NCBI GenBank assembly: GCA_023378865.1
Contig: JAMCSP010000010.1
Span: 20,056 to 52,308 of the forward strand
Source of the DNA: Candidatus Parvarchaeota archaeon
GTDB lineage: Archaea > Nanobdellota > Nanobdellia > Parvarchaeales > Parvarchaeaceae
Direction of reading: 5' to 3'
Length of the DNA: 32,253 bases
The notes beneath the pieces are model-generated. The model had not been told where the DNA came from. It made no database searches and saw only the letters and a list, made by a program, of their open reading frames with translations. Each line of letters opens with the position of its first letter. Positions within the stretch are counted from its first letter, which is position 1. This document shows, one piece after another, positions 1 through 32,253 of this stretch. The translations under genes were made by a program, and so were the position numbers.

Positions 1-970
1 AAGACAGACGTATTATACGGATTTGCAGCAGACTGGCACCAGTTCGTAAACAATGAATGCACTGCCAAGGTTACTGATCCATCAGGAATGATAATTACAG
101 GCATATCCAATTCCTCCACTTCCTACATTGTACAAAAGAAGACATACAACATAACATTCGCTGAAGAAGGTCTGCCTGCAGGATTCTCATGGACAGTAAA
201 CTTCAAAGGAACAAACTATTCAACTACCAACAAAGATAACAGTCTAATTTTAACAACATACGCATTTAATACCCAGTACCAGTTTTACAATGAATCTTAT
301 ACAGAAGACGGCTGCAATCTGCTTTATAGACCATACCCTTCATCAGGCAGTTACAATTCAGTAAGCGGAAACGTGACAGTAACGGTTCAATATTATGCAT
401 ATTCGAATTCATGTACTCCTTTCACAGTAGAAACAGGCTCCAGATACAGTTCTTTAAGCTTTAAATTCACAGTCCCTTCGGATTATTCCTCTAATAACCT
501 TGTTCTATTGGAGACTTCAGGCAGTGCTGCTGATAACATAAACAGTGTAACTCTTCCACCCAACTGTCAGATACTAAATGAAAGCGAAGATATAAATGGT
601 TATAGCGGTGTCTTCTCCGCGGTTTGCATCGAACCTGCTGGCTCATATTACATCAACACAAGCAGTAGTTACAGTTATATTGCTTCCGCTGCCTACATAC
701 TCAACGGCACGGATTATTCACTGGCATCTAACATGACAGAATACACAGGTTATTCTTCAGAGCAGCTTAACTCCACTTTAAGCAAGCTTTACCCTATGAC
801 AGTATGCAATGTAGGTGCCGGCGATGGCTTATCCGTTGCTTACAAGACAGACGTATTATACGGATTTGCAGCAGACTGGCACCAGTTCGTAAACAATGAA
901 TGCACTGCCAAGGTTACTGATCCATCAGGAATGATAATTACAGGCATATCCAATTCCTCCACTTCCTACA
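1..970 (+). repeat. In-frame tandem repeat, 843-bp period, about 1.15 units visible
   Basis: Direct comparison: 1-127 is identical to 844-970, diverging at 128/971 just before the stop codon. Confidence 0.93.
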
Positions 971-981
971 CTTTGCCTTGA
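1..981 (+). CDS. C-terminal part of a tandem-repeat surface protein (5' end outside the window)
   Basis: Frame 1 is open from base 1 (KTDVLYGFAADWHQ...) into the listed 88..981 ORF. Bases 1-127 recur at 844-970 (843 bp = 281 aa period). Contains the module FAEEGLPAGFSWTVNFKGTNYS...CNLLYRPYPSSG. Stop TGA at 979-981. Confidence 0.85.
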   Translation, partial: KTDVLYGFAADWHQFVNNECTAKVTDPSGMIITGISNSSTSYIVQKKTYNITFAEEGLPAGFSWTVNFKGTNYSTTNKDNSLILTTYAFNTQYQFYNESYTEDGCNLLYRPYPSSGSYNSVSGNVTVTVQYYAYSNSCTPFTVETGSRYSSLSFKFTVPSDYSSNNLVLLETSGSAADNINSVTLPPNCQILNESEDINGYSGVFSAVCIEPAGSYYINTSSSYSYIASAAYILNGTDYSLASNMTEYTGYSSEQLNSTLSKLYPMTVCNVGAGDGLSVAYKTDVLYGFAADWHQFVNNECTAKVTDPSGMIITGISNSSTSYTLP

Positions 982-5114: not shown

Positions 5115-5822
5115 ATGGGATTGTTTGATTTGATCAACTTTGCGGCTGACAAAGCATATCATAAGTATAAAGACTCTAAATTAGAAAGCGCAATGGATGC
5201 TATTTTAGATTCTCTGGATTTAACAGCAATAAACATAGAAATTTTGCCGTATACTGAAGGACAGGATAAGCACAAGATAAGAGGAAAGGTCTACAAATTA
5301 AGTAAAGATGAAGTACTTAAATCAAGTGCGACTTATTTTTTGACAACTTCTGATTGGCTTTTAAAATCATGCATATCCGTAAATTATGATAAAACCTACG
5401 AGGCAGCTTTACATGAAAAGTCAGGTTACTTCTATCAGAATTTTGTTAAAGGATATCCGGATCCATCTAAAAATTACAAAGAAAAATATGGCTCAAGTCC
5501 GGCCATTACTGCTTTATTTTTGTATGTCCCAGAAGATAAGGTAATGCTGGCAATTCCAAAATTCATAAGAGACGAGAAGACTGGTAAGAACCTATTGTCA
5601 AAGAGGGCAGCTTCTGAAGAATTTGATAAAATTGAAAAGTTAAAAGTTGAGAATCCAGAAAAATTTGAACATCTCCTTTCAAATTTCTATTACAGGGCAA
5701 AAATGTTCTCGTATAAAGTTGCAGAGGAATTAAAAAGCTACGATAAAAATGATCTAGGAAATGCATTTAAGCAATTCCAGGAAAAACACGGCCCTGAAAG
5801 TGAGATAGAATACACTTTCTAA
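5115..5822 (+). CDS. Hypothetical protein (235 aa, no recognised family)
   Basis: Long ORF with its own TATA-like element; predicted soluble and charged. Confidence 0.75.
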   Translation: MGLFDLINFAADKAYHKYKDSKLESAMDAILDSLDLTAINIEILPYTEGQDKHKIRGKVYKLSKDEVLKSSATYFLTTSDWLLKSCISVNYDKTYEAALHEKSGYFYQNFVKGYPDPSKNYKEKYGSSPAITALFLYVPEDKVMLAIPKFIRDEKTGKNLLSKRAASEEFDKIEKLKVENPEKFEHLLSNFYYRAKMFSYKVAEELKSYDKNDLGNAFKQFQEKHGPESEIEYTF

Positions 5823-8312: not shown

Positions 8313-8318
8313 ATAAAC

Positions 8319-9125
8319 ATGGCATTAGTTGAAATGATGGCTTTTTTGAATGCAGGCATACTAATAGTTGCATTTGCCCTGTTGTTAGTGGTATTATCCT
8401 TTAGCGTTTCTCAGATAAACAGTACAAGCGTCTTTGCAAACTCAGAATCGGTTGCAGCAGGGATAGGCACAAGATTAATAACTTCTCCAAATTGTTTTGC
8501 TTATAAAAACACAATTTCCTATTATAATTCAAGCCTTGATGCTCCAGGCGGGCCATTGTATTCTTCTTCATACACTGAACCGGGAGTAGTAAATATAAAT
8601 AAATTCATTGAAAATTACTTCCTTTCCTGCATGCAATACATCTATTTTGGAGGGGCAACAGACATTCCTTCCTTACAGTCAGATCTTCAGGCAGCAACAG
8701 GGGTTTCATTGACTTTGTTTGATACCCAAAATCCAAACGAGCTTGGTCCAACTGGCTCTTTGTATCTTTCTAATTACAATCAGTTTAATTTTGGAGAAAG
8801 CTTTCAGCAGACAGAAGCTTTAATAGAAAAATATGCGCAAGATGCAGAATATGCTGCCATGGGTGCAAGCTTAGCTTCTAGTTTGGCAATTATGATTGCT
8901 ACTGGAGGGGCTATCCAGTTTAATATAATTCTTGCAGTGGGCCAACACTCCACTACAGAAATAGCACCGCAATATGCTTTAGCATCGATATTCTACTCCG
9001 AAAATACATATACTGAAAGTTTTCCTGTAGAGATACAATTTACTAATGCACAGGGACAGCCGACTTTCCAAAACAGCGGCGTATTACAAGTTCAGGTTAC
9101 TTATGGAATTCCGCCTTACAGTTAG
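8319..9125 (+). CDS. Membrane-anchored surface protein, N-terminal TM (268 aa)
   Basis: MALVEMMAFLNAGILIVAFALLLVVLSFSVSQ followed by an Asn/Ser-rich domain; 6-nt gap from the upstream gene. Confidence 0.8.
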   Translation: MALVEMMAFLNAGILIVAFALLLVVLSFSVSQINSTSVFANSESVAAGIGTRLITSPNCFAYKNTISYYNSSLDAPGGPLYSSSYTEPGVVNINKFIENYFLSCMQYIYFGGATDIPSLQSDLQAATGVSLTLFDTQNPNELGPTGSLYLSNYNQFNFGESFQQTEALIEKYAQDAEYAAMGASLASSLAIMIATGGAIQFNIILAVGQHSTTEIAPQYALASIFYSENTYTESFPVEIQFTNAQGQPTFQNSGVLQVQVTYGIPPYS

Positions 9126-9126
9126 A

Positions 9127-9687
9127 ATGGGTAAAAAAGGCCAGCTTACGATGCTGGATTTGGTTTTGGCACCATTAGCTGCAGTAGTATTAGCAGTATT
9201 AGCGTCTGCTTTATTGCATAGCGCTACTGCAAATTTGTTAACGGCGGTAAGCCAGCAGCCAGTTTCATTTTCATGTAATTTTGCTTTGGATACAATGTAC
9301 AGTACATACTATGTTCATAATGCATTTGCTTTGTCCCAGCTGGCATTAACCAATCCAAGCCAGTATGCTCTTGCGAATTCGAATAAAGAGCAGTCCTTTT
9401 CAACGAACTGCAGCGGAGCCTGCGATTCCAATTACAATTACATTCAAAGTTACCTTTATAATTCCTCTTCGCTTTACAGTGATTTTATAGGCTATTTTTC
9501 TGGGTTTTCCCTAAGTAATTTTCAGGTTTTGACAGGACAGGAGGCAGCCACATTGAAAGCATTAGGTATGCAGGTCTTTTTGAATCAGATACCTGCAGGA
9601 GTTACAGGCACTTCGGAGTGCAGCATGCAGGTTTATAATCCTGCAGATCCTTCGAAGCCTTATACTATTTACGGGGTGATGAATTAA
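9127..9687 (+). CDS. Prepilin-like membrane-anchored protein (start reassigned from 9046)
   Basis: ATG at 9127, in frame with the listed ORF, gives MGKKGQLTMLDLVLAPLAAVVLAVLASALL (KGQ class III/prepilin-like); 1 nt after the upstream stop. Confidence 0.8.
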   Translation: MGKKGQLTMLDLVLAPLAAVVLAVLASALLHSATANLLTAVSQQPVSFSCNFALDTMYSTYYVHNAFALSQLALTNPSQYALANSNKEQSFSTNCSGACDSNYNYIQSYLYNSSSLYSDFIGYFSGFSLSNFQVLTGQEAATLKALGMQVFLNQIPAGVTGTSECSMQVYNPADPSKPYTIYGVMN

Positions 9688-12600
9688 ATGCTAAATACTA
9701 AAGGACAGGCAAACATGATTGTGGTGCTTGGGATGGTCGCAGCTACAATATATATAATGCTTAATGCCTTTGGATATATAGGAAATGTAGGGCTTAGCTC
9801 AAAAATAGAGATAACTGCCCAAAACAGCATCTATCAAACACTCGCTTTAAAAGACTATCTTATGCAGGAAGCGAATTACAATTTTCAGAAAGCAGAGCTT
9901 TTTGACGGCTTGACATTGCAGCCGAGTACTCTGGATTGCGGTTATATAAATACCTCCCAATCATTGCCGTTTGTGCCGGTTCCTAAGGTTTATTACTGGA
10001 GGAATTTGGCAGGTCAAATCTGTCTTCCAAATAATAATTTGATAGAATACGGCCTTGAAACTCTGCTGAATAAAAATTCATTTGAAATTGTAAATTCATC
10101 TAATATAACTATACAGTCTAATCTTGTACTTAACCTTTCAAATCGTAATAGTAACGTGTTTTTCAGTAATTTCTCCGCCCCTTTTTTAAGCAATAAATAC
10201 GAATTCCAGTACAATACTTCATCAGCTACCTTTTCAATATGCGAATGGTCATCAAGTAGCTGTGTTTATGTTAGCCACAACGTTCCTTTAGGCGTTAATT
10301 TTAACCTGTCAAATATGGGTTTTACTTCCATGCCTTTGCAGGATATTGTTTCTGGAGTGATAGACCAGGCAACCGCGGTTAGTGCTTTTTTCAAAGGATC
10401 CGGGCTTTCCCCATCAAGCCAATATACATTAATTACATTTCCCAATGGAAACGTGGCAATACTTTACACAAATACAATATCTGGTGTGACTTCATTTTAT
10501 TTAACCCCTATGCCAAATGAAAATCTATATACACTTAGCAGTGTCATCTCTTATGATACTGCAAACAACATACCAAGTAAAATACAGCTTTTTAACGATT
10601 CAAAAAAGGGATTTATTTTTGACGGCACAAATTATACTTTTTCAGTGACTTCGAATACAAGTGGGATATTTACAATAGAACCTACAAATTATGTTATGTT
10701 TGGCATACAGCCTCAGTTCGTTTATTACAAATACATTCTAAACAGTATACAGAATTCAGGTACGCAGAATCTTTTATTTCCGAATAACCAGAATCTTTAT
10801 GTTTCGTATTCTTTGTTTCCGTTGTACTCGCCGCAGGTTTGTGTAAATTATAATGAAGGACAGTACGATTTACAAAATTGCCTCACACTTTCTGATTCCA
10901 TAACAGGTAATAATTATCTTAGCCAGTTAATGCAGTTAGGAATAGCATTTGTAAATCAAAGTTTTCCAATAGGCAATCAGAAAATAGAAGGTTTTGCACA
11001 GTATGAAATAGACAATTACATTTCAAACGCTATAAATGCCGTAAACCTTAAAACCGTATCGGTAAACGGCAAACCAAAGTATGACTGGTATTCTGCTTTG
11101 ATTCTCCAGCTCGGCTCTCCGCAGGGAACAAGTTATCTTTTGAATAAATTGAACAGAGTAAAGGAGCCGTATTATGGAACTTATATCTACAATTGTGAGC
11201 AAAATAGCTCAGATTTAGCTTATTGCAGAAATCTGCTATCTTCTACGCTGTCCCAAGATATTATTTCCCTGCTGCAGCAGCAGATGCCAAAGGAACTAAG
11301 CTTCCTTTCCGGCACTAACTTTAATATAAATGTTTTAAACTTATCTGTAAATGCAAGTGAGATAAGTTCCTGTACAAATGCAAGCAATTACAGTGTAAGC
11401 TCAAATTACTCGTATTCCGTAAAAAGTTTGCCAGTAAGTGGAAATTTCTCAGAAGAAGTGCTAGGTATACCGATATCCCTGGATTTCGGCTATCAAAACA
11501 ATCTAAGTTTAACTCCAACTGAAGCATGCGGTATACAGAAATCTCCGTACTCTACAGGCTATCCCGGATTTTCCGAAGCTTTGATAACAAACAATTTAAC
11601 TTATATTAACTGCGCTCCTGTCATTTCTCAGTTATTCTTAAACCATACCTGCATTGCCAGTTTACAGACAAATAATTATACAATGGAACAGTACCTTAAT
11701 TCTACTAGTTCAGCTCCAAGTGGCGAATACTGCAGCAAAATGCCGGATGGGCAGTATTTTTGTCCCTATTATAAGGTTTCTAGTTTTTCTTATAAGAACT
11801 GGATAACAAGCAGCAATACATGTCCAGATTACTTTGTGATAGACAGTAAAAATTTCACAACTTCCCAAAGCAGTAACTACAGGCTTGTTTCAGTTTATGG
11901 AGGGGGCTCGGATTCAGCCAAATTATCATTTTACAACAAGACGTTTGCATTGTACAATGGCTCTTTAAATCTTCCTGTAAATTTCAGTTTTAATGTCGGA
12001 TTTAATTCAACCGGCCCTTACGCAGGTATAAGTGCTTTCTTTTCAAGCAAAACCGATTTATCCAACAATGTTATTTCTGCTTCTTTCAATTCGGTACAAA
12101 ATCCAGATGGATTATACAATTATTCTATAGAAACCGATTCGGCAATTCTGCTGGGAGGTTCTGATAGTCATGTCTCTCCAGATACACAAAATGAGCTAAG
12201 TTTTAACCGTTACTGCATTGATAACAGCGGCTGCAATCTCACTGCGTACCTTAATTCCAATCTTCAAAGCAGTTTTTACAGTAATTCTACTCAAATTACT
12301 TCTGCCGTTAATTTATTAGGTATATCAACCACTTCTAAGCCTTCCTCTAACCTGATAAGTTACGCCTTCGTGAGTAATTATATTCCATCTTATAAACCTG
12401 TTGAAAGGGAATTATCTTATGCTCCATCTTCAGAGCTTAATCCTTCCTTAAATGCTTCATTCGGACTTAAAACTAATAATAACACGTATTTCAATGAGAT
12501 TATTTTAAATCAATCCTCATTTTCCAATAGTTTCCAGCTTTCCGTTAGTCTTAATAGTAATTTCAATTTCGGTTATTTAGTTCCTGGCTACGTAAAGATC

Positions 12601-13113
12601 TTTGGAGTTTATCCAAATAATAACATTTTGCAGCTTTACTGGTGGAATCAGACAACACTAGGAAACGGCGGTTTGTTGTGGATTAATCTTACAAAAAATG
12701 TGCCAAATGAATTGTATATAGTTTATGGACAGGGTGCTTCTTACAATGGAAAGTTTTCTGACAATGGCTCTGAGGTTTTCCCCTTTTTCTATTCTGTAAA
12801 TTCAAATAGCCAGCCTTTTACATTCCTTTATCCGAATAAAGTGCAGCATGATTTCAATGCATATTACTCTAATACAGGGCTGAATCTTTCAAATACAGAG
12901 CCCATCCCTCCTTATGTTTATAACGCTACTTTAAGTCTTTATTCCGAGGAGTTTGCGTGTATAAATGTTAATCCATTTAAGCTAACGCTTCTTAATGGAA
13001 CTTATTCAGCTTACCCTCCAAACTTTAATATAAATGAATTGTATAATGATTTTAGCACATTATACCCAGATTTAACTATAATAGGAAAGCAAACTTATAC
13101 AAATTGGCCGTGA
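9688..13113 (+). CDS. Giant surface protein (1141 aa) with prepilin-like N-terminus and a C-terminal DUF2341-like region
   Basis: MLNTKGQANMIVVLGMVAATIYIML; C-terminal GGLLWINLTKNVPNELYIVYGQGASYNGKFSDNGSEVFPFF resembles DUF2341; abutting the upstream stop (0-nt gap). Confidence 0.82.
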   Translation: MLNTKGQANMIVVLGMVAATIYIMLNAFGYIGNVGLSSKIEITAQNSIYQTLALKDYLMQEANYNFQKAELFDGLTLQPSTLDCGYINTSQSLPFVPVPKVYYWRNLAGQICLPNNNLIEYGLETLLNKNSFEIVNSSNITIQSNLVLNLSNRNSNVFFSNFSAPFLSNKYEFQYNTSSATFSICEWSSSSCVYVSHNVPLGVNFNLSNMGFTSMPLQDIVSGVIDQATAVSAFFKGSGLSPSSQYTLITFPNGNVAILYTNTISGVTSFYLTPMPNENLYTLSSVISYDTANNIPSKIQLFNDSKKGFIFDGTNYTFSVTSNTSGIFTIEPTNYVMFGIQPQFVYYKYILNSIQNSGTQNLLFPNNQNLYVSYSLFPLYSPQVCVNYNEGQYDLQNCLTLSDSITGNNYLSQLMQLGIAFVNQSFPIGNQKIEGFAQYEIDNYISNAINAVNLKTVSVNGKPKYDWYSALILQLGSPQGTSYLLNKLNRVKEPYYGTYIYNCEQNSSDLAYCRNLLSSTLSQDIISLLQQQMPKELSFLSGTNFNINVLNLSVNASEISSCTNASNYSVSSNYSYSVKSLPVSGNFSEEVLGIPISLDFGYQNNLSLTPTEACGIQKSPYSTGYPGFSEALITNNLTYINCAPVISQLFLNHTCIASLQTNNYTMEQYLNSTSSAPSGEYCSKMPDGQYFCPYYKVSSFSYKNWITSSNTCPDYFVIDSKNFTTSQSSNYRLVSVYGGGSDSAKLSFYNKTFALYNGSLNLPVNFSFNVGFNSTGPYAGISAFFSSKTDLSNNVISASFNSVQNPDGLYNYSIETDSAILLGGSDSHVSPDTQNELSFNRYCIDNSGCNLTAYLNSNLQSSFYSNSTQITSAVNLLGISTTSKPSSNLISYAFVSNYIPSYKPVERELSYAPSSELNPSLNASFGLKTNNNTYFNEIILNQSSFSNSFQLSVSLNSNFNFGYLVPGYVKIFGVYPNNNILQLYWWNQTTLGNGGLLWINLTKNVPNELYIVYGQGASYNGKFSDNGSEVFPFFYSVNSNSQPFTFLYPNKVQHDFNAYYSNTGLNLSNTEPIPPYVYNATLSLYSEEFACINVNPFKLTLLNGTYSAYPPNFNINELYNDFSTLYPDLTIIGKQTYTNWP

Positions 13114-13116
13114 TTT

Positions 13117-16100
13117 ATGGATAAAAGAAAGGTATCTGCTGAAGTATTGATGATTTCCTTCATAGTCGTATTATCCGTACTTATTGCATATAGAGGAGTA
13201 ATTCTGCTATCAAATAATAATTTATCCGTTAATTCGGCTGCAAAATTACAGTTAATAAACACATCAAATACTTCTAATCCATTATTGAATCTTGCTAGTT
13301 ATAGCAATTCAGATCCATTAAGTCTGATAACAAGCAATGAATATGTATCCTCTTCTTCTATTTACTCAAAAAATAATTTTTGGTTCAATGAGAAGTTTTA
13401 TCCTGGAAATATTTCTTCCTCAAGTGGTTATTCTTGCAGTGCAGTGAATGAGATAATCGCTCCGCATTTATGTCTAAGTTTATTCACTTTCTTTTCGTGC
13501 GGAGGCGGTCCAGAGACTTCTACATTTAATAATTTAGTAGGCTATCTTGGTTTTCCACAAGGAGATAGTGGATTTCCAAACAGCGGTGGTGTAAACTATT
13601 CAAACCTTTACTCTGCGGTAAGCAACGGGACTTCGCAGAATGTTTATCAGTTACCTTCATCAGAGTTTCCTTATCAAAACTTTATAAACTGGAGCAGTTC
13701 AACTATACATTCTTATTCTGGTTTATCAAGTACTGGAACTAATTATATATATGCTATTAATAATTCCTTTACAGGATATTCAAATATAGGTATAACCGGC
13801 AGCGTACCAAAAAGCACATTGATAATCCCTGCGGTTTCATGCGGTTCTACTTTCATAAACAATTATATAGATTACCCAGGTTTTGTAGGGACGTTGTACA
13901 ATATATCGACTTTAAGCGGCTTTACCCCTTCTGTTTTCCTAGCATCTCCTAATGAAAATGGTTATGGCGCATATTATTCTTTTGGGCATATCCTTACTTT
14001 AGGAAACGATCCGTGGATAGGTTCCTTCAATTCGCTTTTGGCATATCAGATTCAGTCAATAAGCCCCGCTTTTAATTATACTATGCCATCAGTTGATTAT
14101 GCGCAGTTTCCAAAGGGAAATAAAGGAGACCTCCAGTACATAAATGTTTCGACTAGTTTTTTAACTCCGCTGTCAATGTCCTATTACGGAGGAAATTCTT
14201 CGGGTGTCGAAATATATGTTTCAAATAAAGGCATTTCTTCCTTATTGAATACTTCTGCAGCCCAAACTGTATGTACTGAAGAAGGCCCGCATGGCTCGTG
14301 TTTAAGATACGGCCAGGATGTAACGACCACACAAACTGCAGATACTTTTACTTCTCCAGATCTGGAAGGAGCTTATTACCCTAATTATGGCAATGGAATT
14401 TACCTTGAGTTTAGGACTGATGGCGTATTCCCCATATGTGCCTGGAATTCTACCATTGATAATACGTTAAGTAGCTGTACATTCGAAAATCCTTTAACCA
14501 TAAACAATGTTTCTTATGAGAGATTGTGGCTGTCAAATAATTTAAAGAATAACCAGTTGTATAACACTCCATTTATTCCTGGTTATTCAAGTTCTTCCCC
14601 CCAAAATAACTTTACATTGACTGCTTTGAATAGCTTCTGCTTTTATGGAGAAAACTTCAATACTAACGACGGAGTTTATACCTCGCCAAGTTACACTAGG
14701 ATAATACCGCCAACTGCATCTGAAAACTACACAAGTGCAATTGGAACTTGTAATGCATTTTTCAACAATACAAACTGTTTCAGTAAAAGCGCAAGTCAGT
14801 ATCTAAATTTCCAGGATGGGATATTTGCAAACAACATAAAATGTACTTCAACAGGCATACATGCACAGAACGTTACAGATGCTTGGATTAATTCAATATA
14901 TATAGCAAATAACGCAGGTAATTACTGCGGTTTATTCAATGGACAGAAGAACCCTTCTAATCCAGAAGCTAACTCTACGATTTTCCTTCAGGGCATAAGC
15001 ACAAATTGTCCAGAATTTAATGCAAATTCCTCTTCGGTTAACCTCGTTATAACTGTTAAGAATGTTGGTAATACAAAAATAACAAATCCATACCTTGTTG
15101 CATTATATGGAAATAACAATCTAAGCACAATATTTTATAATTCTGAAAACAGTCAAAGTATAACCTATCAGTTATACCAGGACTTTCTTTCTTCTATGTC
15201 AGCTACAACAGGAGTAATACAGGTAGATTATAATAATAATTTCGATACAAACATGTATGTATTTGATAAAGGTTATCCTTTGAATCCCATTCCACTGGAA
15301 TCTCTTTTCTCATCAGCTCAAGGCTATGAAAATGGCCCTTTCAATAATTCTTTGTTGGGGATGTGGATATATGCTCCTGGAGATGGCCTTCCAAACAATG
15401 TTATAAGAACGTCTAATGCACTGCTTGTACATTCGGATTCCGGCAGTTCAAATGTTCCGGTAATTGAGCCGAATGGTACAGCAACGTTTACCTTGCAAGT
15501 TCCAATGTCTCTTTTCAGAGCATTACTTTACGGTAAATACAATTTAAGCGTTTTCTTTGGAAACACCTTCAATGTTACCTGGGGCAGTTCAGACTCTCCA
15601 AGCGGCTCGTTAGCAAGCAACATAAATATACAAGTTAATCCTTTAGTCTCATCTTCTACGCAAAATGTTTCTCAGGACCATAACAATGAGATAATGACTA
15701 ATGGAAGCGGAGCCGTTTCTCCTATCTGGCAGTACATTGTCAGCTATAATTTTAATCTTTCAAAATCGCCAATGAAGGGAATCGGCATATACAGTGATAA
15801 TCTATCAATTGATGTAAATGCTGTAAATTCTACCTCCAATGCATTAAATGTAACAGTTAATCCTTCTGTTTCCATTACAAATGGCAGTGGCAATTACAAA
15901 TTGGGGCTTAGTCAGCTAAAAGGTTCTTCGATATCCTGTTTTGTTTCACCTGATAATGTGCAGGACTTTGGCGTTTTTTGGTCTAAGCAGATAGTTTCCC
16001 CATCCAATTTGAATTATGCCTTATCCAATAGTCTGTATTATGGAAATGCAAAACAGGCCAGCAATGTATTGATAACAAGCTGGACCGGAATCCTATTCAT

Positions 16101-19100
16101 GCCTTACTCAGACCAAGTAGCATTAAATTACAATAATCTGCCGCAATATTCCTCTGCACTCTCTTCATTTCAGTTAGAAAAGCCTACTCTTAATCAGACC
16201 TCTGGTAATTTCAAATATGAAGCATTTGCATATTTTGGAACTGGAAGCGAAAGTAATGTATTTAATAGCCTTTCCAACCTTTATGGGTCCCTTAATTCGA
16301 CTGTGTCTTCTTTCCCGGTTTCTCTTCCAAATAGCTCACTTCCGTTTAATCTTTTTTCAAATTCAATAGTCAGTGACCCTTCAATATTAAGAATAGTAGG
16401 TACTGACACTTTAGTAAATTATTCAACATTTTCGAATAAGCCATTTACATTTTCATTGATTACCAAGGGCTCAATTCAATGTTCTGTAAGTGAATCAACT
16501 TCTGTTAATGCAACATTTGAATCGGGCTCTTCGTCTTCAATTTCATCCTGTTTAAGCAATGCAGTTATAAATGGTTCCTATATAAATATCTCTTCTAAGT
16601 ATGGCCCATTCTTTGTTGATATGTACAATAACTCTAATTTAAACATATCGAATGAAACTTCCGATGGAACAGTTCTTATGGCAGGTAACGAAACCTTATC
16701 TGTTCCGTCTAAAAATGGGCTGTTTACGGTGAAATTGCCAATAAATACAACAATTAAAAATGGGATTGCTTTGGTCTTTTCAGTTATTCCATTAAGCAGG
16801 CAACTTTCCAATTCAATGTTGTACCTTTATAATATAAATGGAACTCCTTTTAACTGTAATATAGTGAATGACTATAATAATACAGGTAATCTGGGGGTTA
16901 CTGAAATAAGAGACGGAGAATATTTCCTGCCAAATGGCACTATAATGTGCAATTTGGACAGCGATTTTACATATTTAAGAGCAGTGTTTATTAATCGGTC
17001 CAATGGTGCTTATCTGGGAAGCGGTGATATACAATCCGGCTTATCAATACAGAACATAAGCGGGAACACAGGTAAAGGACTTTTGAATATTAGTATAGAC
17101 GGGGTTCCTGTAAATGCACAAGATCTAAGTATAACTCCCTATTCAAATAGCAACTGTAATACGGTAACGGACAAGGTAGTCTATAACGGAATAGTTCAAT
17201 ACAACTTAGGTTGTAATTTATCAGATGCATTAATAACATTTGACTACAATAATAATGGAAGCTTAACACCGGAGTCAGCCTTTATATCGCCTGCAAATTA
17301 TAATTCAAATTCTAAAAAGTTTTTATTCATGAGCCCTTCTTCTATATCCGATTCTCCAATTGCGGAGTATAACCTCACAATTCCAAGCAGCGGCATAGGG
17401 AATGAACCGATTCAGTTCATTCTATCAAACAATTTTGGAGGATGCAATAATATTAGAGTTGTAGCACAGAGCCCATACCCCTATGCAGAAGTTCCTTTCC
17501 AGGTAGTCTCTTCAGGTTCACAGTACTGTGATTATACATTTGTAGGGAACAGTAATAACAGGTATTCAGTATTTGAAAGCAACTCTCCTTCTATTGCATA
17601 CAGTTCAAACTGGATAAGCTATAACAGTACTCAATACACTGTCCAGCTGTCTACGGCCTTATTTAACGCGGACCTTATAAGTAACTGCCAGTCTGGTTTT
17701 GGCCCATGTGTAGACTCCTTTTCCGTAGGCGGAAAAACATTGGGTAATCTGTTGTTTAATAATGTCTCTACCTCCTCTGCTACGATATATCAGTCAATAT
17801 CCGGCCCAGTTGAGGACTGCTTCACTGTAAGCTATTCCTCTTCGCAAACCGTTGAGTTCCCCGAAACCGGGTTTGGAAGCATAAACTACGCTAACAATAA
17901 AATTTATCAGACCAGTACACCTTCGCAATCTATAGACAGCATGTATTGTTTCTATGCCAATTCTCCAATAATTACCGATTCAATATCTGCACAGGGTTCT
18001 CCAATAGATTTCAAAGTACAAAACCAGCTAATATCCAATTTCTCTTATTTACAGGGTAGCAATCATGAGGCGTTTTATGTTCCGCCAGCAATAAAAGTAG
18101 GTTATAGTTCATACAGCAATGTAAATATAAGCACGTTAAACCCCGTATACTACAATGTTACAACTCTTGATAACATATTAACAAAATGCATAAATTACAC
18201 CTATATAACCTCCAATATTATGGATTTAAACAGCAGCAAGATAAATGCTGTAAATATCTCGTCTGCTAACATCTTAACTCCAGAAAAGCTTTATTGTATT
18301 TATGGAGGTACGCCCTCTTATACTACCCAGTATTCATTGAGTTCAACGAATAACATGAACTCTACTTCATCAGTTGGATTTGCGTATCAGCCCGGAAATT
18401 ACACAAATGGACAGGGCACCTTGTATGATTCTTGTTTGGGATCCTCGGCACTTGCTATATCCAGTTCACCTATCTTTTATTTAAATGGAAAAGAAGAACC
18501 ATACAGCTTTTCAAGCGCCGAGAACTACACAATGGCCCATTCTGCAGCAAATGGCGGTTTAGAGATGCTTTACAGTCCGACTGGAGGCGTGTTCATAGAC
18601 AGTTGTCCTTCTAATAGCACAATATTAAGTTATAGTACCTGCACAAAACCTGTGGCAGTTATTCCTTCAAATGGTTCTTATGACAGTATTGAAGCTATAC
18701 CTACAGGTAAAAATGGAAATCTTTCGTTTGGCGGGGGTTGTTATATTGGTACATTAAATGGTAACTCATACAGCTGTGCTCCAACAGATGGAGCCATTAA
18801 TTACCAGTATAAATCCAAATCTGCATCTTCATCCAGCGTTTCTGTTTCAAAAGTAATAATGAATTCGACAGAAGCGCCAACTTCAACATTTTCACTTTCA
18901 TTTGATTGCAGTGTAAATGCCTCCAATAACTCTAAATTCCAGTTATCCTCATGCAGTTATCCAAATAGCAAAAATTCCGGGTTATGCTCTGCAAGCGTTT
19001 CTTACAAAAGTATAAACTCAACAGCATATAATATAACTGCAATGTGTTCTGCGGTTTCAAATAATTCATTCAAAATAGTTTCTGCTGTAACAACTATCAG

Positions 19101-22100
19101 TAATCTTAATATTGATGGCTCTCAATCTGAAAAGACGGGTTTGATATCAAATTACATTTGTGGAAATGAAACAAATGTTATACAACACAATGTGCTTAAT
19201 GGATGGAATTGGGAAGCGTATTCAACAACTGGAAAAATAAATCCAGTTTCAACAACGAATCCGGCAGGAGTTGCAGAGGTAGGAGGATGCGAAGCAGGAA
19301 GAGATACATTCCTAACTGCAAATCCAAACATAACCTTAACCAAAAATGGAAGCACTTTTCAAAATTCTTATTCCTGCCAAAGCGGATATACTGGAACTAT
19401 AACGGCCTGCAGCCAGACTATGTCTTTGTCGCAGGTATCAAATTTGCTTAGTTCTAATCCTAAGTGCTCTTATACAAATACTACTTTGATAAACACAACA
19501 ATTAAAACAAACACAATAAATGGAAACGGAACTGGGGGTCAGGCAACAGCCTGTAATCCATTTAATAAAGCAGGATACCTGCAGCCTACTTTGCAGGATA
19601 ATTGCATTGCTTACCATAATCCTGTAATAAATTCAACGACAGCTTCGTACGCGCTTCAGTACATTAATTCAAGCAGTTTAGGTATAGGGCTAGGAGTTAT
19701 AGGGAATCAATATTCTTTAAACATCTCAATTCCAAATAACAAGCAGCAAAATTTGGTAAAGGATGCATACCTTACAGGATTATCGGAATCCCAGATAGAA
19801 GGGCCTAATAATATACTTACTAATATCCTGCCGACTTCCTTATTGGAATCTAATTTGCCAAGCAAGGCACTGTCCATATCTGCGGCTTACTCCTATGATA
19901 TGCTTAATATACTGATGCTCCAGAACCCGTCTCTGGGGGTAAGCGGAATACCTGGCTTTGTTAATGGAAGCATTTTGGATTATGCTTTAAGTCTGTTTAC
20001 AGGAGGTACATCGGGTAATTGCGCTCCTCCGTACAACGTAAGCGGCGATGGCATTTTCAGGTTAGGTGAGGGAGAGCTTTGTTCTGGCAAAAATTTGCCT
20101 GCAAGTTATAAAGAAGGAGTTTTCCTTTCATTGGGAACTTTAAACGAGGGCCTTCATTCACTACAATTTTACAGTATAGGTAATTCCACAAACGAAGCTC
20201 AGCCATCCGCTTCTATATTTGACAGCGTTGGAAATGCCGTTAATTTAAACAGTGCTTGTTCAAATGGCAATAGTAGGGTATTCACTTCAACTTACAGCGG
20301 AGGAAAGTGGAGCTTTAATATAACTTCTGATCAACAGTGTAATCCAATAAATAATCAATTGTACGGCTATATAGTTAATTGCCTGTATCAAACACCTGGA
20401 AATGAGACTTACACCATAGCTTCACAGTATTATCTAGCGTACAATCTTCCAACAATATGGAACATAAGTTACTCTTTGCTAGTTTCTCCAAAAAGTTACC
20501 AAGTCGTTCCTACTCCAGTATATCAAATAAACTATTCAACTGGTTCGATACTTACGCTACAGCAGCCGAACAAGACTATATTCATTGAAAAAGGCTTACC
20601 AAGCGGGTACAAATGGTATTTAAATTACAATGGAGTCAACAGAAGCTCTACCGGAAATAGTATTTACTTTTATTCGACTGGTAAAAATGCGTTTAAAACC
20701 TATACATTGTCCAATAGCTCTGCAACTTCTGACTGTTATACAACTTATACGCCAACGCCTTCGTCTGGAAGCGTAACATCAGGTACAACCACATATATAC
20801 AGTTTGCTGGCGTTACAACTTGCTATTCTTACTTCAAACAAAGTGGCTTGCCTACAGGATTAAATTGGAACGTTACATACAATAATATAATCGGAAGCAC
20901 GTCTATGCCAACGCCTTTGGCTCCTAATTCCGGAGGGGCCGTAAACGCAAACAGTAATTTAGCAATAGAATTTATAACCAGTAATCCTGGAGGATTTGGG
21001 GGCAATTTTTCATTTTATGTTTCTAACGTTAAAACAACTTCGGCTGCGTGTACACAAGTTTATGAGCCTTCTCCCAGTTCCGGTTATCTTATAGCTGGAA
21101 CAAACCAAAGTATAACGTTTTCGCTTAGCTCCAATACCTGCGTTACTACCTTTACTGAAAAAGGTCTGCCAACTAATCAAAAATGGAGCGTTGATTACAA
21201 TGATGTTATAAAGACGGCCACCATCTCGACTATAACATTTGTAACCAACCCAGGAATTCTTTCATATTCGGTAAGCTCTACTTCTTTAGTTTCCAATGGA
21301 TGTACTACCTCCTACAGTCCGGAGCCATCCTCAGGCTCTTTGTCGGCAGGGTCATCTGTTAATATAGACTTTTCATCAAAAACTTATTGTATTACTACGT
21401 TTACAGAAAAAGGCTTACCGAGCGGAGATAGCTGGTCCGTAACTTATGACAATAATAAAGAAACCTCTACAGGATCTTCAATAACCTTCAATACAAGCTC
21501 AGGGTCATTCTCTTGGTCTTCATTCGCTTCGCAAACTACTCCCTCAAGCGGTTGTACAGAGTCTTATAATTCTCCTACTGGCAAAAACACCGCTGGCACT
21601 CCCGTTTCAGTGTCATTTTCTGGGTCTATTTCATGCCCTACTACATTTTATGAAAGTAATCTTCCCAGCGGGTATACCTGGTCAGTATCATACGATGGGA
21701 AACAAGGTTCAGCCGGCACAGGTTCGCCTATAACCCTAAGTGCAGGAGAAGGCACATTCACTGCCCATGCATCTGTTTCTGGTCTTTCCTGTACAGCTAC
21801 GAGCATATCTGCCACTGCAGGCAATAGTTATACTTTCTCTAGCTGGTCATGTAATACGTATTTCTACATATGGACACAATCCCCGTTGCCAAGTAGTAGA
21901 TACACTGAAAATGTCATATTTAACGGCAATTCGCAGACACAAAATTGGGGCAATAAAAGAGTAACTCTTCCTAATGGCCAAACTGGCTTAGAATTCTCGT
22001 TTCCAAGCTCCAGCTCAACATCCCTGGATTCATGGTCGGTTAATAGCCCAATAACGGGGACTTGGGGAGATTGTGGTATTGCTACTGGTGCAGATGTCTG

Positions 22101-22185
22101 GACAGCCACTGTTTCGAGTGGCGGATTATACCCTGGACAAAGCATATATGTCTATTATACTGTATCATGTAATACGTTTGCTTAA
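13117..22185 (+). CDS. Giant surface protein (3022 aa): N-terminal prepilin/TM-like segment, Asn/Ser/Thr-rich body, five C-terminal FxExGLPxGxxWxV modules
   Basis: MDKRKVSAEVLMISFIVVLSVLIAYRGVILL; uninterrupted 9,069-bp ORF; CARDB-like stretch SVNLVITVKNVGNTKITNPYLVALYG; C-terminal Cys-containing modules. Confidence 0.88.
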   Translation: MDKRKVSAEVLMISFIVVLSVLIAYRGVILLSNNNLSVNSAAKLQLINTSNTSNPLLNLASYSNSDPLSLITSNEYVSSSSIYSKNNFWFNEKFYPGNISSSSGYSCSAVNEIIAPHLCLSLFTFFSCGGGPETSTFNNLVGYLGFPQGDSGFPNSGGVNYSNLYSAVSNGTSQNVYQLPSSEFPYQNFINWSSSTIHSYSGLSSTGTNYIYAINNSFTGYSNIGITGSVPKSTLIIPAVSCGSTFINNYIDYPGFVGTLYNISTLSGFTPSVFLASPNENGYGAYYSFGHILTLGNDPWIGSFNSLLAYQIQSISPAFNYTMPSVDYAQFPKGNKGDLQYINVSTSFLTPLSMSYYGGNSSGVEIYVSNKGISSLLNTSAAQTVCTEEGPHGSCLRYGQDVTTTQTADTFTSPDLEGAYYPNYGNGIYLEFRTDGVFPICAWNSTIDNTLSSCTFENPLTINNVSYERLWLSNNLKNNQLYNTPFIPGYSSSSPQNNFTLTALNSFCFYGENFNTNDGVYTSPSYTRIIPPTASENYTSAIGTCNAFFNNTNCFSKSASQYLNFQDGIFANNIKCTSTGIHAQNVTDAWINSIYIANNAGNYCGLFNGQKNPSNPEANSTIFLQGISTNCPEFNANSSSVNLVITVKNVGNTKITNPYLVALYGNNNLSTIFYNSENSQSITYQLYQDFLSSMSATTGVIQVDYNNNFDTNMYVFDKGYPLNPIPLESLFSSAQGYENGPFNNSLLGMWIYAPGDGLPNNVIRTSNALLVHSDSGSSNVPVIEPNGTATFTLQVPMSLFRALLYGKYNLSVFFGNTFNVTWGSSDSPSGSLASNINIQVNPLVSSSTQNVSQDHNNEIMTNGSGAVSPIWQYIVSYNFNLSKSPMKGIGIYSDNLSIDVNAVNSTSNALNVTVNPSVSITNGSGNYKLGLSQLKGSSISCFVSPDNVQDFGVFWSKQIVSPSNLNYALSNSLYYGNAKQASNVLITSWTGILFMPYSDQVALNYNNLPQYSSALSSFQLEKPTLNQTSGNFKYEAFAYFGTGSESNVFNSLSNLYGSLNSTVSSFPVSLPNSSLPFNLFSNSIVSDPSILRIVGTDTLVNYSTFSNKPFTFSLITKGSIQCSVSESTSVNATFESGSSSSISSCLSNAVINGSYINISSKYGPFFVDMYNNSNLNISNETSDGTVLMAGNETLSVPSKNGLFTVKLPINTTIKNGIALVFSVIPLSRQLSNSMLYLYNINGTPFNCNIVNDYNNTGNLGVTEIRDGEYFLPNGTIMCNLDSDFTYLRAVFINRSNGAYLGSGDIQSGLSIQNISGNTGKGLLNISIDGVPVNAQDLSITPYSNSNCNTVTDKVVYNGIVQYNLGCNLSDALITFDYNNNGSLTPESAFISPANYNSNSKKFLFMSPSSISDSPIAEYNLTIPSSGIGNEPIQFILSNNFGGCNNIRVVAQSPYPYAEVPFQVVSSGSQYCDYTFVGNSNNRYSVFESNSPSIAYSSNWISYNSTQYTVQLSTALFNADLISNCQSGFGPCVDSFSVGGKTLGNLLFNNVSTSSATIYQSISGPVEDCFTVSYSSSQTVEFPETGFGSINYANNKIYQTSTPSQSIDSMYCFYANSPIITDSISAQGSPIDFKVQNQLISNFSYLQGSNHEAFYVPPAIKVGYSSYSNVNISTLNPVYYNVTTLDNILTKCINYTYITSNIMDLNSSKINAVNISSANILTPEKLYCIYGGTPSYTTQYSLSSTNNMNSTSSVGFAYQPGNYTNGQGTLYDSCLGSSALAISSSPIFYLNGKEEPYSFSSAENYTMAHSAANGGLEMLYSPTGGVFIDSCPSNSTILSYSTCTKPVAVIPSNGSYDSIEAIPTGKNGNLSFGGGCYIGTLNGNSYSCAPTDGAINYQYKSKSASSSSVSVSKVIMNSTEAPTSTFSLSFDCSVNASNNSKFQLSSCSYPNSKNSGLCSASVSYKSINSTAYNITAMCSAVSNNSFKIVSAVTTISNLNIDGSQSEKTGLISNYICGNETNVIQHNVLNGWNWEAYSTTGKINPVSTTNPAGVAEVGGCEAGRDTFLTANPNITLTKNGSTFQNSYSCQSGYTGTITACSQTMSLSQVSNLLSSNPKCSYTNTTLINTTIKTNTINGNGTGGQATACNPFNKAGYLQPTLQDNCIAYHNPVINSTTASYALQYINSSSLGIGLGVIGNQYSLNISIPNNKQQNLVKDAYLTGLSESQIEGPNNILTNILPTSLLESNLPSKALSISAAYSYDMLNILMLQNPSLGVSGIPGFVNGSILDYALSLFTGGTSGNCAPPYNVSGDGIFRLGEGELCSGKNLPASYKEGVFLSLGTLNEGLHSLQFYSIGNSTNEAQPSASIFDSVGNAVNLNSACSNGNSRVFTSTYSGGKWSFNITSDQQCNPINNQLYGYIVNCLYQTPGNETYTIASQYYLAYNLPTIWNISYSLLVSPKSYQVVPTPVYQINYSTGSILTLQQPNKTIFIEKGLPSGYKWYLNYNGVNRSSTGNSIYFYSTGKNAFKTYTLSNSSATSDCYTTYTPTPSSGSVTSGTTTYIQFAGVTTCYSYFKQSGLPTGLNWNVTYNNIIGSTSMPTPLAPNSGGAVNANSNLAIEFITSNPGGFGGNFSFYVSNVKTTSAACTQVYEPSPSSGYLIAGTNQSITFSLSSNTCVTTFTEKGLPTNQKWSVDYNDVIKTATISTITFVTNPGILSYSVSSTSLVSNGCTTSYSPEPSSGSLSAGSSVNIDFSSKTYCITTFTEKGLPSGDSWSVTYDNNKETSTGSSITFNTSSGSFSWSSFASQTTPSSGCTESYNSPTGKNTAGTPVSVSFSGSISCPTTFYESNLPSGYTWSVSYDGKQGSAGTGSPITLSAGEGTFTAHASVSGLSCTATSISATAGNSYTFSSWSCNTYFYIWTQSPLPSSRYTENVIFNGNSQTQNWGNKRVTLPNGQTGLEFSFPSSSSTSLDSWSVNSPITGTWGDCGIATGADVWTATVSSGGLYPGQSIYVYYTVSCNTFA
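20581..21880 (+). repeat. Five diverged in-frame FxExGLPxGxxWxV modules (starts about 20581, 20833, 21151, 21400, 21646)
   Basis: FIEKGLPSGYKWYLNYNG / FKQSGLPTGLNWNVTYNN / FTEKGLPTNQKWSVDYND / FTEKGLPSGDSWSVTYDN / FYESNLPSGYTWSVSYDG; spacings 252, 318, 249, 246 bp; recurrent Cys and P-SSG motifs. Confidence 0.88.
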
Positions 22186-22186
22186 A

Positions 22187-22744
22187 ATGGAAACGAAAAT
22201 GGCCATCATTATTTTGATTATAATAGCAGCAGTAATTATAGCATTTTTGCTGCTTAACAAGCCTGAAAAAAGCACGGCGGCATTGACATTTCTACAAAAG
22301 GAAAACTTGTCTCATGTTTTTTCGTCTCCGACATTGTCATTTAATTTTAGCAGTGATTTTTATCTTGTTAACACAACGGGGCTATTGATATCACAGTATT
22401 ACAATTCTGCAAGATTTTATTATAATTATAATACCTCCGTAATTATAAGTGTAATTCAAAATAAGACGAATAAGAGCTCCGGGTACTTTTATAAACTAAT
22501 CTATAGCGAATTCAATGATTCTAATTATTCATTCCAAAACATTTCAGTAAAAGGATACAATGGTTTAAAGGTGATATCAGATAAAGCAGGGGCAGCATAC
22601 GCCCTGGCTTTTATATTTGGCCCAAGCGGTTATTATACAGCCGTATTTATAAGCGATCCTTTTTCGCAGTTTATAAATGTAAGCGATTCCGCATTAAATA
22701 AAATATTGCAGACAATAAGTTTTGGCCCATCTCCATACATATAA
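22187..22744 (+). CDS. Small membrane-anchored extracellular protein, last gene of the surface operon (start reassigned from 22073)
   Basis: ATG at 22187 in the listed frame: METKMAIIILIIIAAVIIAFLLLNK; 1 nt after the stop of the 3022-aa gene. Confidence 0.75.
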   Translation: METKMAIIILIIIAAVIIAFLLLNKPEKSTAALTFLQKENLSHVFSSPTLSFNFSSDFYLVNTTGLLISQYYNSARFYYNYNTSVIISVIQNKTNKSSGYFYKLIYSEFNDSNYSFQNISVKGYNGLKVISDKAGAAYALAFIFGPSGYYTAVFISDPFSQFINVSDSALNKILQTISFGPSPYI

Positions 22745-29653: not shown

Positions 29654-29661
29654 ACTTATAT
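29654..29661 (+). promoter_or_regulatory. Putative TATA box for the 29684 gene
   Basis: acttatat about 28 nt upstream of the ATG at 29684, same spacing as other genes in the window. Confidence 0.4.
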
Positions 29662-29683: not shown

Positions 29684-32253
29684 ATGCAATTAAGGCATTT
29701 AAAAGCGGAAGAACAGCATTATTATGTACCCAAAATCAAAAATAAGAAATTAAATTTTAAAATAAAGAGAAAAAAATCACAGTCAGCTCTGGAATACATG
29801 ATGACCTATGGCTGGGCTATCCTAGTAGTTGTAGTTGTTGCAGTGATTCTCTACAGTTTAGGAATATTTAATCCCTCTTCAAGCATAACAACAACAATAA
29901 CAGGCTTTGCAGGCTTGGGATCCCCGCAGGCAATCTGTTATTCAAACGGGAATCTAAACCTAAGTTTGGGCGATTCAGTAGGCTATCCAATAAATATACA
30001 GAGCATAACAGCAACCAATTCAACAAACGGAAAAGTTTCAATAACCCCGGATATTGCATTAAATCCAGGAGCATCTCATGTGTTTGTAATACCAGGCATA
30101 TGCCCTGCAGCAGGCAGGTATGCAATAAATGTTGAAGTAGAATACTACGAACCAACACAATCCCTTACAGGACCATATTTCTCAAAGGGATATATAACAG
30201 GGCAGGTGGTAACAGCACCTGTTATATCACATTACACTACTTTTACAGAGAGCAATCTTCCATTGAATACAAAGTGGAATGTTACCTATGACGGGGATAC
30301 TTTATACTCAACTTCAAGCATCATAAACTTCCCAATAACAAAAGGCACATATACTTATTTCATACCCTATGTCAACACAACCCCTTCAGGATGGTGCGTA
30401 TATACCCCCTCTGCTGACTCTAAGAACATTACAGGAACATTAGCGGCAGATTCAACATACAATGTAAATTTCGTAAGAATAGGCTGTCCCCCTACTTTCA
30501 CAGTACAGACAGACTCGGTATCCGGTTCTTTAAGCTTTAAGTTTACCGTTCCTGCAGATTATTCCTCCAATAACGTGGTTCTATTAGAGACTTCGACCAG
30601 CGATGGTTACATAAAAAGTGTAGCTCTACCTTCAAATTGCTACATAATAAATCAAAGCGAATCCATAAATAGCTTGAGCGGTGTTTTCTCAGCGGTTTGC
30701 ATAGAATCTCCAGGCTCATATTACATCAACACTAGCGTTCCTTATGGCGGTACTGTTTCCGCTGCCTACATACTCAACGGCACGGATTATTCACTGGCAT
30801 CTAACATGACAGAATACACAGGTTATTCTTCAGAGCAGCTTAACTCCACTTTAAGCAAGCTTTACCCTATGACAGTATGCAATGCCGGTGCCGGCTTAGA
30901 ATTATCAGTTGCTTACAAGACAGACGTATCATATGAATATGCGGCAGACTGGCACCTGTTCGTAAACAACGAATGCACTGCCAAGGTTACCGATGGAGGA
31001 GGAATGATAATTACAGGCATATCCCCATCAAGGAAGATAGACAACATAACTTTTATTGAGACAGGTCTTCCTTCAGGGTTCTCATGGACAGTAAACTTCA
31101 ATGGAACTAATTATTCCTCCAACAAAGAAGAGCAAAGTATAATTTTAGCAGCAGATGCAGTTGATAAATACCAGTTTTACAATGAATCCTATACAGAAGA
31201 CGGCTGCAATCTGCTTTACAGACCCTTCCCTTCATCAGGTACTTACAGTTCATTACAAGGAAATGTGACAGTAAAGGTTCAATATTATGCATATTCAAAT
31301 TCATGTACTCCTTTCACAGTACAGACAGACTCGGTATCCGGTTCTTTAAGCTTTAAGTTTACCGTTCCTGCAGATTATTCCTCCAATAACGTGGTTCTAT
31401 TAGAGACTTCGACCAGCGATGGTTACATAAAAAGTGTAGCTCTACCTTCAAATTGCTACATAATAAATCAAAGCGAATCCATAAATAGCTTGAGCGGTGT
31501 TTTCTCAGCGGTTTGCATAGAATCTCCAGGCTCATATTACATCAACACTAGCGTTCCTTATGGCGGTACTGTTTCCGCTGCCTACATACTCAACGGCACG
31601 GATTATTCACTGGCATCTAACATGACAGAATACACAGGTTATTCTTCAGAGCAGCTTAACTCCACTTTAAGCAAGCTTTACCCTATGACAGTATGCAATG
31701 CCGGTGCCGGCTTAGAATTATCAGTTGCTTACAAGACAGACGTATCATATGAATATGCGGCAGACTGGCACCTGTTCGTAAACAACGAATGCACTGCCAA
31801 GGTTACCGATGGAGGAGGAATGATAATTACAGGCATATCCCCATCAAGGAAGATAGACAACATAACTTTTATTGAGACAGGTCTTCCTTCAGGGTTCTCA
31901 TGGACAGTAAACTTCAATGGAACTAATTATTCCTCCAACAAAGAAGAGCAAAGTATAATTTTAGCAGCAGATGCAGTTGATAAATACCAGTTTTACAATG
32001 AATCCTATACAGAAGACGGCTGCAATCTGCTTTACAGACCCTTCCCTTCATCAGGTACTTACAGTTCATTACAAGGAAATGTGACAGTAAAGGTTCAATA
32101 TTATGCATATTCAAATTCATGTACTCCTTTCACAGTACAGACAGACTCGGTATCCGGTTCTTTAAGCTTTAAGTTTACCGTTCCTGCAGATTATTCCTCC
32201 AATAACGTGGTTCTATTAGAGACTTCGACCAGCGATGGTTACATAAAAAGTGT
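29684..32253 (+). CDS. N-terminal part of a giant tandem-repeat surface protein with class III/prepilin-like signal (3' end outside the window; missing from the ORF track)
   Basis: Open frame: MQLRHLKAEEQHYYVPKIKNKKLNFKIKRKKSQSALEYMMTYGWAILVVVVVAVILYSLGIFNPSSS..., then FTESNLPLNTKWNVTYDG module, then 272-aa repeats to the window end without a stop. Confidence 0.9.
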   Translation, partial: MQLRHLKAEEQHYYVPKIKNKKLNFKIKRKKSQSALEYMMTYGWAILVVVVVAVILYSLGIFNPSSSITTTITGFAGLGSPQAICYSNGNLNLSLGDSVGYPINIQSITATNSTNGKVSITPDIALNPGASHVFVIPGICPAAGRYAINVEVEYYEPTQSLTGPYFSKGYITGQVVTAPVISHYTTFTESNLPLNTKWNVTYDGDTLYSTSSIINFPITKGTYTYFIPYVNTTPSGWCVYTPSADSKNITGTLAADSTYNVNFVRIGCPPTFTVQTDSVSGSLSFKFTVPADYSSNNVVLLETSTSDGYIKSVALPSNCYIINQSESINSLSGVFSAVCIESPGSYYINTSVPYGGTVSAAYILNGTDYSLASNMTEYTGYSSEQLNSTLSKLYPMTVCNAGAGLELSVAYKTDVSYEYAADWHLFVNNECTAKVTDGGGMIITGISPSRKIDNITFIETGLPSGFSWTVNFNGTNYSSNKEEQSIILAADAVDKYQFYNESYTEDGCNLLYRPFPSSGTYSSLQGNVTVKVQYYAYSNSCTPFTVQTDSVSGSLSFKFTVPADYSSNNVVLLETSTSDGYIKSVALPSNCYIINQSESINSLSGVFSAVCIESPGSYYINTSVPYGGTVSAAYILNGTDYSLASNMTEYTGYSSEQLNSTLSKLYPMTVCNAGAGLELSVAYKTDVSYEYAADWHLFVNNECTAKVTDGGGMIITGISPSRKIDNITFIETGLPSGFSWTVNFNGTNYSSNKEEQSIILAADAVDKYQFYNESYTEDGCNLLYRPFPSSGTYSSLQGNVTVKVQYYAYSNSCTPFTVQTDSVSGSLSFKFTVPADYSSNNVVLLETSTSDGYIKS
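30501..32253 (+). repeat. In-frame tandem repeat, 816-bp period, two full units (30501-31316, 31317-32132) plus partial third
   Basis: cagtacagacagactcggtatccgg recurs at 30501, 31317 and 32133. The full units read identical by eye; identical antisense ORFs in the track are offset by exactly 816. Confidence 0.96.

Follow-up and report, generated by a model that had tools for sequence, protein, structure and literature searches.

A probable modular type IV pilin with repeated A-B modules in a Candidatus Parvarchaeota archaeon

Introduction

The tested precedents for modular type IV pilins are PilB and PilC of Streptococcus sanguinis (PMC8179133, PMC9934059). These resemble the protein described here in having a small pilin moiety with a class III signal and Glu+5, onto which functional modules are grafted. 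However, PilB and PilC are bacterial and their census was made with the bacterial motif IPR012902, whereas the present protein is archaeal and has an EppA-type Gln+1. Further differences are its lineage-specific A/B repeat ectodomain and its many paralogues, which number dozens in some genomes.

Archaeal type IV pilins and minor pilins (Makarova et al. 2016, PMC4858521; Haloferax PilA, PMC4371748) are alike in their class III signal, A24 peptidase, VirB11-type ATPase, TadC-type platform and an H-domain conserved among paralogues, although they are mostly small, and DUF2341-type adhesin domains are found there on separate large pilus-tip proteins. Class III signals are already known from large archaeal proteins (PMC4371748). 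The Sulfolobus bindosome (PMC2910488) combines large extracellular proteins, class III signals and type IV pilus machinery; it differs in being sugar-binding, is thought not to be pilin-derived (PMC4371748) and has no repeat arrays. The LamG and beta-propeller surface proteins of the ARMAN-type archaeon Mia14 are close in ecological setting and domain types, and some of the LamG genes are linked to type IV pilus loci; a fusion to a pilin head is not described for them in the available text (PMC5498576). In a Parvarchaeota family, only VirB11 and TadC were found as cell-contact genes in one report (PMC7779479). No description of a pilin-headed adhesin repertoire in Parvarchaeota was found in the mostly open-access literature searched. 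ARMAN-type archaea are reported to touch Thermoplasmatales cells via pili-like structures.

Results

Gene and protein architecture

The gene lies at the end of the window, which is the whole 32,253-bp stretch analysed (C10:20056-52308) of a genome of 807,505 bp in 35 contigs. The reading frame is open on the + strand from the ATG at 29684 to the last base of the window, without a stop. The original prediction had the frame leaving the window, and the window end is indeed the end of contig C10 (52,308 bp). The gene is on its own, and its neighbours are housekeeping genes (RIO kinase, a methyltransferase-type gene). The features are as follows, in positions of the window.

1..981, + strand: C-terminal part of an upstream paralogue (end of A, B, A, stop), ending in GISNSSTSYTLP and the stop, in the position that the orthologue occupies in G018
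29655..29661, + strand: TATA-like element (cttatat) read from the sequence, centre about 26 nt 5' of the ATG at 29684
29684..29779, + strand: basic leader of 32 aa, whose last residues (K-K-S) precede the predicted prepilin-peptidase site; unrelated to the leader of the upstream paralogue
29780..29875, + strand: class III H-domain QSALEYMMTYGWAILVVVVVAVILYSLGIFNP, with Gln +1 and Glu +5; the sole hydrophobic helix of the protein
29876..30223 (limits approximate), + strand: pilin-like beta-rich head domain, in alignment with pilins of the genus, both plain and modular
30224..30499, + strand: B', a diverged GLP-type module, 84% identical in the orthologue
30500..31030, + strand: A domain of unit 1, with four invariant cysteines
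31031..31315, + strand: linker and B (GLP) module of unit 1
31316..31846, + strand: A domain of unit 2, identical to unit 1
31847..32131, + strand: linker and B module of unit 2, identical to unit 1
32132..32253, + strand: beginning only of a third A domain, cut at the contig end

The TATA-like element would fit a leaderless archaeal transcript. The predicted class III site falls between KKKS and QSALEYMMTYGWAIL and is followed by one hydrophobic helix, in agreement with the prepilin-like signal that had been proposed. Both Gln+1 and Glu+5 agree with the rule for EppA-type substrates (PMC4371748). The diverged GLP module expected from 30242 is present in frame, where it reads FTESNLPLNTKWNV. 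The A-B unit is exactly 816 bp (272 aa), and positions 30495-31437 match the copy 816 bp downstream over 943 bp with zero mismatches; thus the repeat is not due to chance, and the identical 272-aa units of the original prediction are present in the assembled sequence. The very long array that it envisaged is not seen, as the window holds two full units and 127 bp of a third. Sequons number 25 against 14.1 +/- 3.0 in shuffled sequence, an excess as expected for what would be a glycosylated surface protein.

For the A and B modules, neither Pfam nor the PDB offers a credible match, and PDB profile searches with the head and with A-B returned nothing meaningful. Cyclin_C and TraK_N score under the gathering level in Pfam and were rejected as noise. 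The Pfam and NCBIfam matches of the window protein include no pilin model; its head is of archaeal type with Gln+1, and IPR012902 describes the bacterial N-methylation motif. The AlphaFold model of the A-B unit (mean pLDDT 57, pTM 0.46) and the AF2 model of the head plus B' (mean pLDDT 38) are too weak for fold assignment. A Foldseek search with the A-B model retrieved generic beta-sandwich proteins only, at TM (query) < 0.25, and no fold is claimed.

Contig ends, orthologue and array length

The third unit in the window consists of exactly 127 identical bases (32127-32253). The same length recurs at other breaks: the first 127 bases of contig C26 are repeated inside the same contig, contig C12 has 126 repeated bases, and each edge of an 869-N gap that lies just before the window (C10:19187-20055) repeats exactly 127 bases. 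This pattern suggests that the assembly graph used k=127. Because of this overlap at other breaks, and because the contig ends in the array, the copy number and C-terminus of the array are not readable in this genome.

A complete, gap-free orthologue is present in a related MAG at G018:C8:23712-26753 (JAMCRO010000008.1, 'Candidatus Parvarchaeota archaeon isolate FK_Sedi_A_Bin.253'). It reads head–B′–A–B–A–B–A–stop in a frame of 1,014 aa (987 aa counted from Gln+1, the mature form), and its A domains 2 and 3 have identical DNA. For comparison, the most extreme modular pilin named in the S. sanguinis work has 860 residues. Judged by its neighbours, a gene resembling the metallo-β-lactamase fold and a ~900-aa Lhr-type helicase gene (window 1006-3705), the orthologue is the counterpart of the upstream paralogue (C10:18874-21033). 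The head of that paralogue is outside the window, beyond the 869-N gap (C10:18874-19186), and the gene under study, which lies 29 kb beyond it, is a second copy. As the same order is found in a gap-free sequence, the tandem architecture is not an assembly artefact, copy number excepted; this answers by way of homologues the doubt raised with the original prediction. The product of the gene is, by comparison with the orthologue, probably ~1,000 residues long and not giant.

The pilin-head family across the genus

A head profile was built from an alignment of plain and modular pilins of the genus. Its matches number 12 in this genome, 23 in G003, 39 in G022, 14 in G020 and 5 in G015; these are not gene counts, since some, notably in G022, are halves at contig ends. 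In a class-wide sample, 17 genomes of the genus have from 5 to at least 16 head matches, and the other 219 genomes have at most 7 each. The gene is thus no unique oddity. The original prediction regarded a pilin head on a repeat array as unusual and the gene as a single-gene fibre, and neither description suits one member among dozens of pilin-headed proteins in the genus.

The same genomes also encode plain pilins of 150-165 aa (~155), which align over the helix and head domain. The helix QSALEYMMTYGWAILVVVVVAVILYSLGIFNP is identical to theirs at 22-28 of 32 residues. In this genome, C26 carries a tandem pair of them and C9 one. Among 35 sampled pilin-headed proteins, Laminin_G_3, of the same fold superfamily as the concanavalin-A-like lectin of PilC, is found in 18, beta-propeller families in at least 6 and DUF2341 in 3. 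The majority of heads are joined to one of these domain types or to GLP repeats. Fifty sampled long members range from 249 to 1,500 aa from Gln+1 (median ~385), some being cut by contig or locus ends. A longer pilin-headed gene in this genome (C25:713-6004) encodes 1,764 aa.

The residue at -1, counted in the pilin heads of the genus (loci L047-L084, L116, L121-L163), is Ser in 38 of 50 modular members, whereas all 14 plain pilins counted have Gly or Ala (Fisher p = 2e-7, as a guide only, since related sequences are non-independent). The gene under study has Ser, which is less usual than Gly or Ala. Ser at -1 may reflect slower processing, sparse incorporation, or modular members that stay tethered.

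The assembly machinery is encoded in the same genome. A T2SSE-family ATPase is found at C13:57716-58417, with two adjoining T2SSF proteins at C13:55748-56949, and an A24 peptidase with a GGGD motif lies at C25:10237-11094, beside a pilin-headed 1,125-aa gene.

Elsewhere in the window, positions 5883-22185 hold an operon-like run of five membrane-anchored secreted proteins (809, 268, 213, 1,141 and 3,022 aa). Several of their N-termini are class III-like (KKAQIVIG, KKGQLTMLD, NTKGQANMIV), the 1,141-aa protein matches DUF2341 weakly, below threshold, and GLP modules lie at the C-terminus of the 3,022-aa protein. The run could be a minor-pilin/adhesin locus. A small membrane protein with the motif SSPTLSFNF follows the 3,022-aa gene (22073-22744) and is also found between two pilin-headed genes at C25:6042-6677 (locus L041); it is a possible conserved companion.

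Mosaic heads and tails

The mature heads of the two copies in this genome have 2 differences in the first 144 bp, followed by at least 127 identical bp; the A and B modules of the two copies, by contrast, are ~84% identical, and the leaders are unrelated. In G003, five pilin-headed genes lie in a row (G003:C3:20001-35461, locus L079; Q codons at 5239, 8023, 10767, 13937 and 15251). Identity within this cluster is 95-100% in the leaders, 85-98% in the helices, mostly 60-71% in the beta domains (one pair 95%) and 66-76% in the 3′ parts; most upstream flanks are 64-77% identical. The mosaic suggests recombination around a constant head, although this is no more than a hint, since the genes are related and codon selection is a possible cause.

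A-B arrays on another anchor

Related A-B arrays, with perfectly repeated units, are carried by a 1,190-aa protein in this genome (C2:2271-5840, locus L039) and a 1,234-aa protein in G018 (G018:C27:3667-7368, locus L077). Both arrays follow an ordinary signal anchor and a coiled-coil-like stalk that is long and rich in Asn, Leu and Ser. The four cysteines of the A domain are invariant in 10 of 10 aligned copies. Across the class, the A domain turns up in 7 of 383 genomes, with strong matches in just three, all from this genus, and it looks restricted to the lineage.

Discussion

The gene probably encodes a modular archaeal type IV pilin, which would be displayed on the pilus and whose modules may serve as adhesin or spacer in cell contacts. 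Its product has a basic leader, a small -1 residue, Glu+5 and a hydrophobic N-terminal helix, peptidase and assembly machinery are encoded in the same genome, and it is homologous to plain single-domain pilins; the pilin moiety is followed by a C-terminal non-pilus module (A-B here; LamG, propeller or DUF2341 in paralogues). The assignment draws on the class III features, the complete orthologue with its stop, the machinery and the plain pilins with nearly the same helix, and further on the LamG, propeller and DUF2341 paralogues, the genus-wide expansion, the sequon excess and the precedent of S. sanguinis PilB and PilC. Against it count the -1 Ser typical of modular members, with which processing may differ, the position of the gene alone beside housekeeping genes, the poor structure models and the lack of a credible database match for A and B. 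Of the original prediction, the pilin head on repeated modules stands and the giant length is unsupported; its alternative wording, a pilus subunit carrying a long stalk, comes near to the assignment made here, a pilin head with an ectodomain of repeated modules.

In the mechanism we propose, the A24 prepilin peptidase would cut the basic leader before QSALE. The near-invariant helix would then anchor the protein and pack with the plain ~155-aa pilins in a filament, for whose assembly the same genome supplies the secretion ATPase and platform proteins. The small head would present the GLP (B) and A modules outward, and the ectodomain may act as an adhesin or spacer contacting other cells; the best guess for these is the Thermoplasmatales hosts that ARMAN-type archaea are reported to have.

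The array itself can be read in other ways. One is that an unrolled loop of the k=127 graph created the second of the identical units or joined head and array; for the gene as a whole this is hardly credible. Every break around these genes is at 127 bp, and the heads of the two copies share an identical stretch of at least that length, so the second unit could be such a loop; however, the order is the same in the gap-free orthologue, and the two copies differ in their 5' flanks and in their A/B sequences, so that copy number could be affected but architecture hardly. A true giant fibre, with many identical A-B units per chain as originally proposed, is very unlikely. Perfect identity of the units, a contig that stops inside the array and the 1,764-aa pilin-headed gene would agree with it, but the orthologue has two A-B units and a final A before its stop, the upstream paralogue likewise ends in A and a stop, and three other A-B arrays have only 2-3 units each.

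It is somewhat unlikely that the protein is instead a membrane-tethered surface adhesin, with the pilin-type helix a mere anchor that is cleaved slowly or never and lies outside any filament. The arrays on a non-pilin anchor at C2:2271-5840 and in G018:C27 indicate that A-B works without a pilus head, Ser at -1 is typical for the modular class, and the bindosome provides class III signals on large non-pilin proteins (PMC2910488). However, a plain anchor has no need of conserved Gln+1 and Glu+5 or of a helix almost the same as in plain pilins, and the C2-type anchor has none of these features, which leaves a modular pilin as our preferred reading. A wider and rather speculative extension, to which we give little weight, is that the pilin head in this genus is a constant 5' cassette recombining with changing 3' adhesin modules, so that one small pilus machine would show shuffling host-binding tips, with -1 Ser marking a decorated class for slow or sparse incorporation.

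Genomes of <1 Mb here spend many genes on decorated pilins, which bears on how ultra-small DPANN archaea recognise and grip their hosts. The grafted large domains are probably sticky, and pilin-headed proteins are plausible tools for gripping other cells. The modular pilin idea would thereby be extended from bacteria to archaea, and pilins with lectin, propeller or repeat modules are concrete candidates for the pili-like contacts between ARMAN and Thermoplasmatales.
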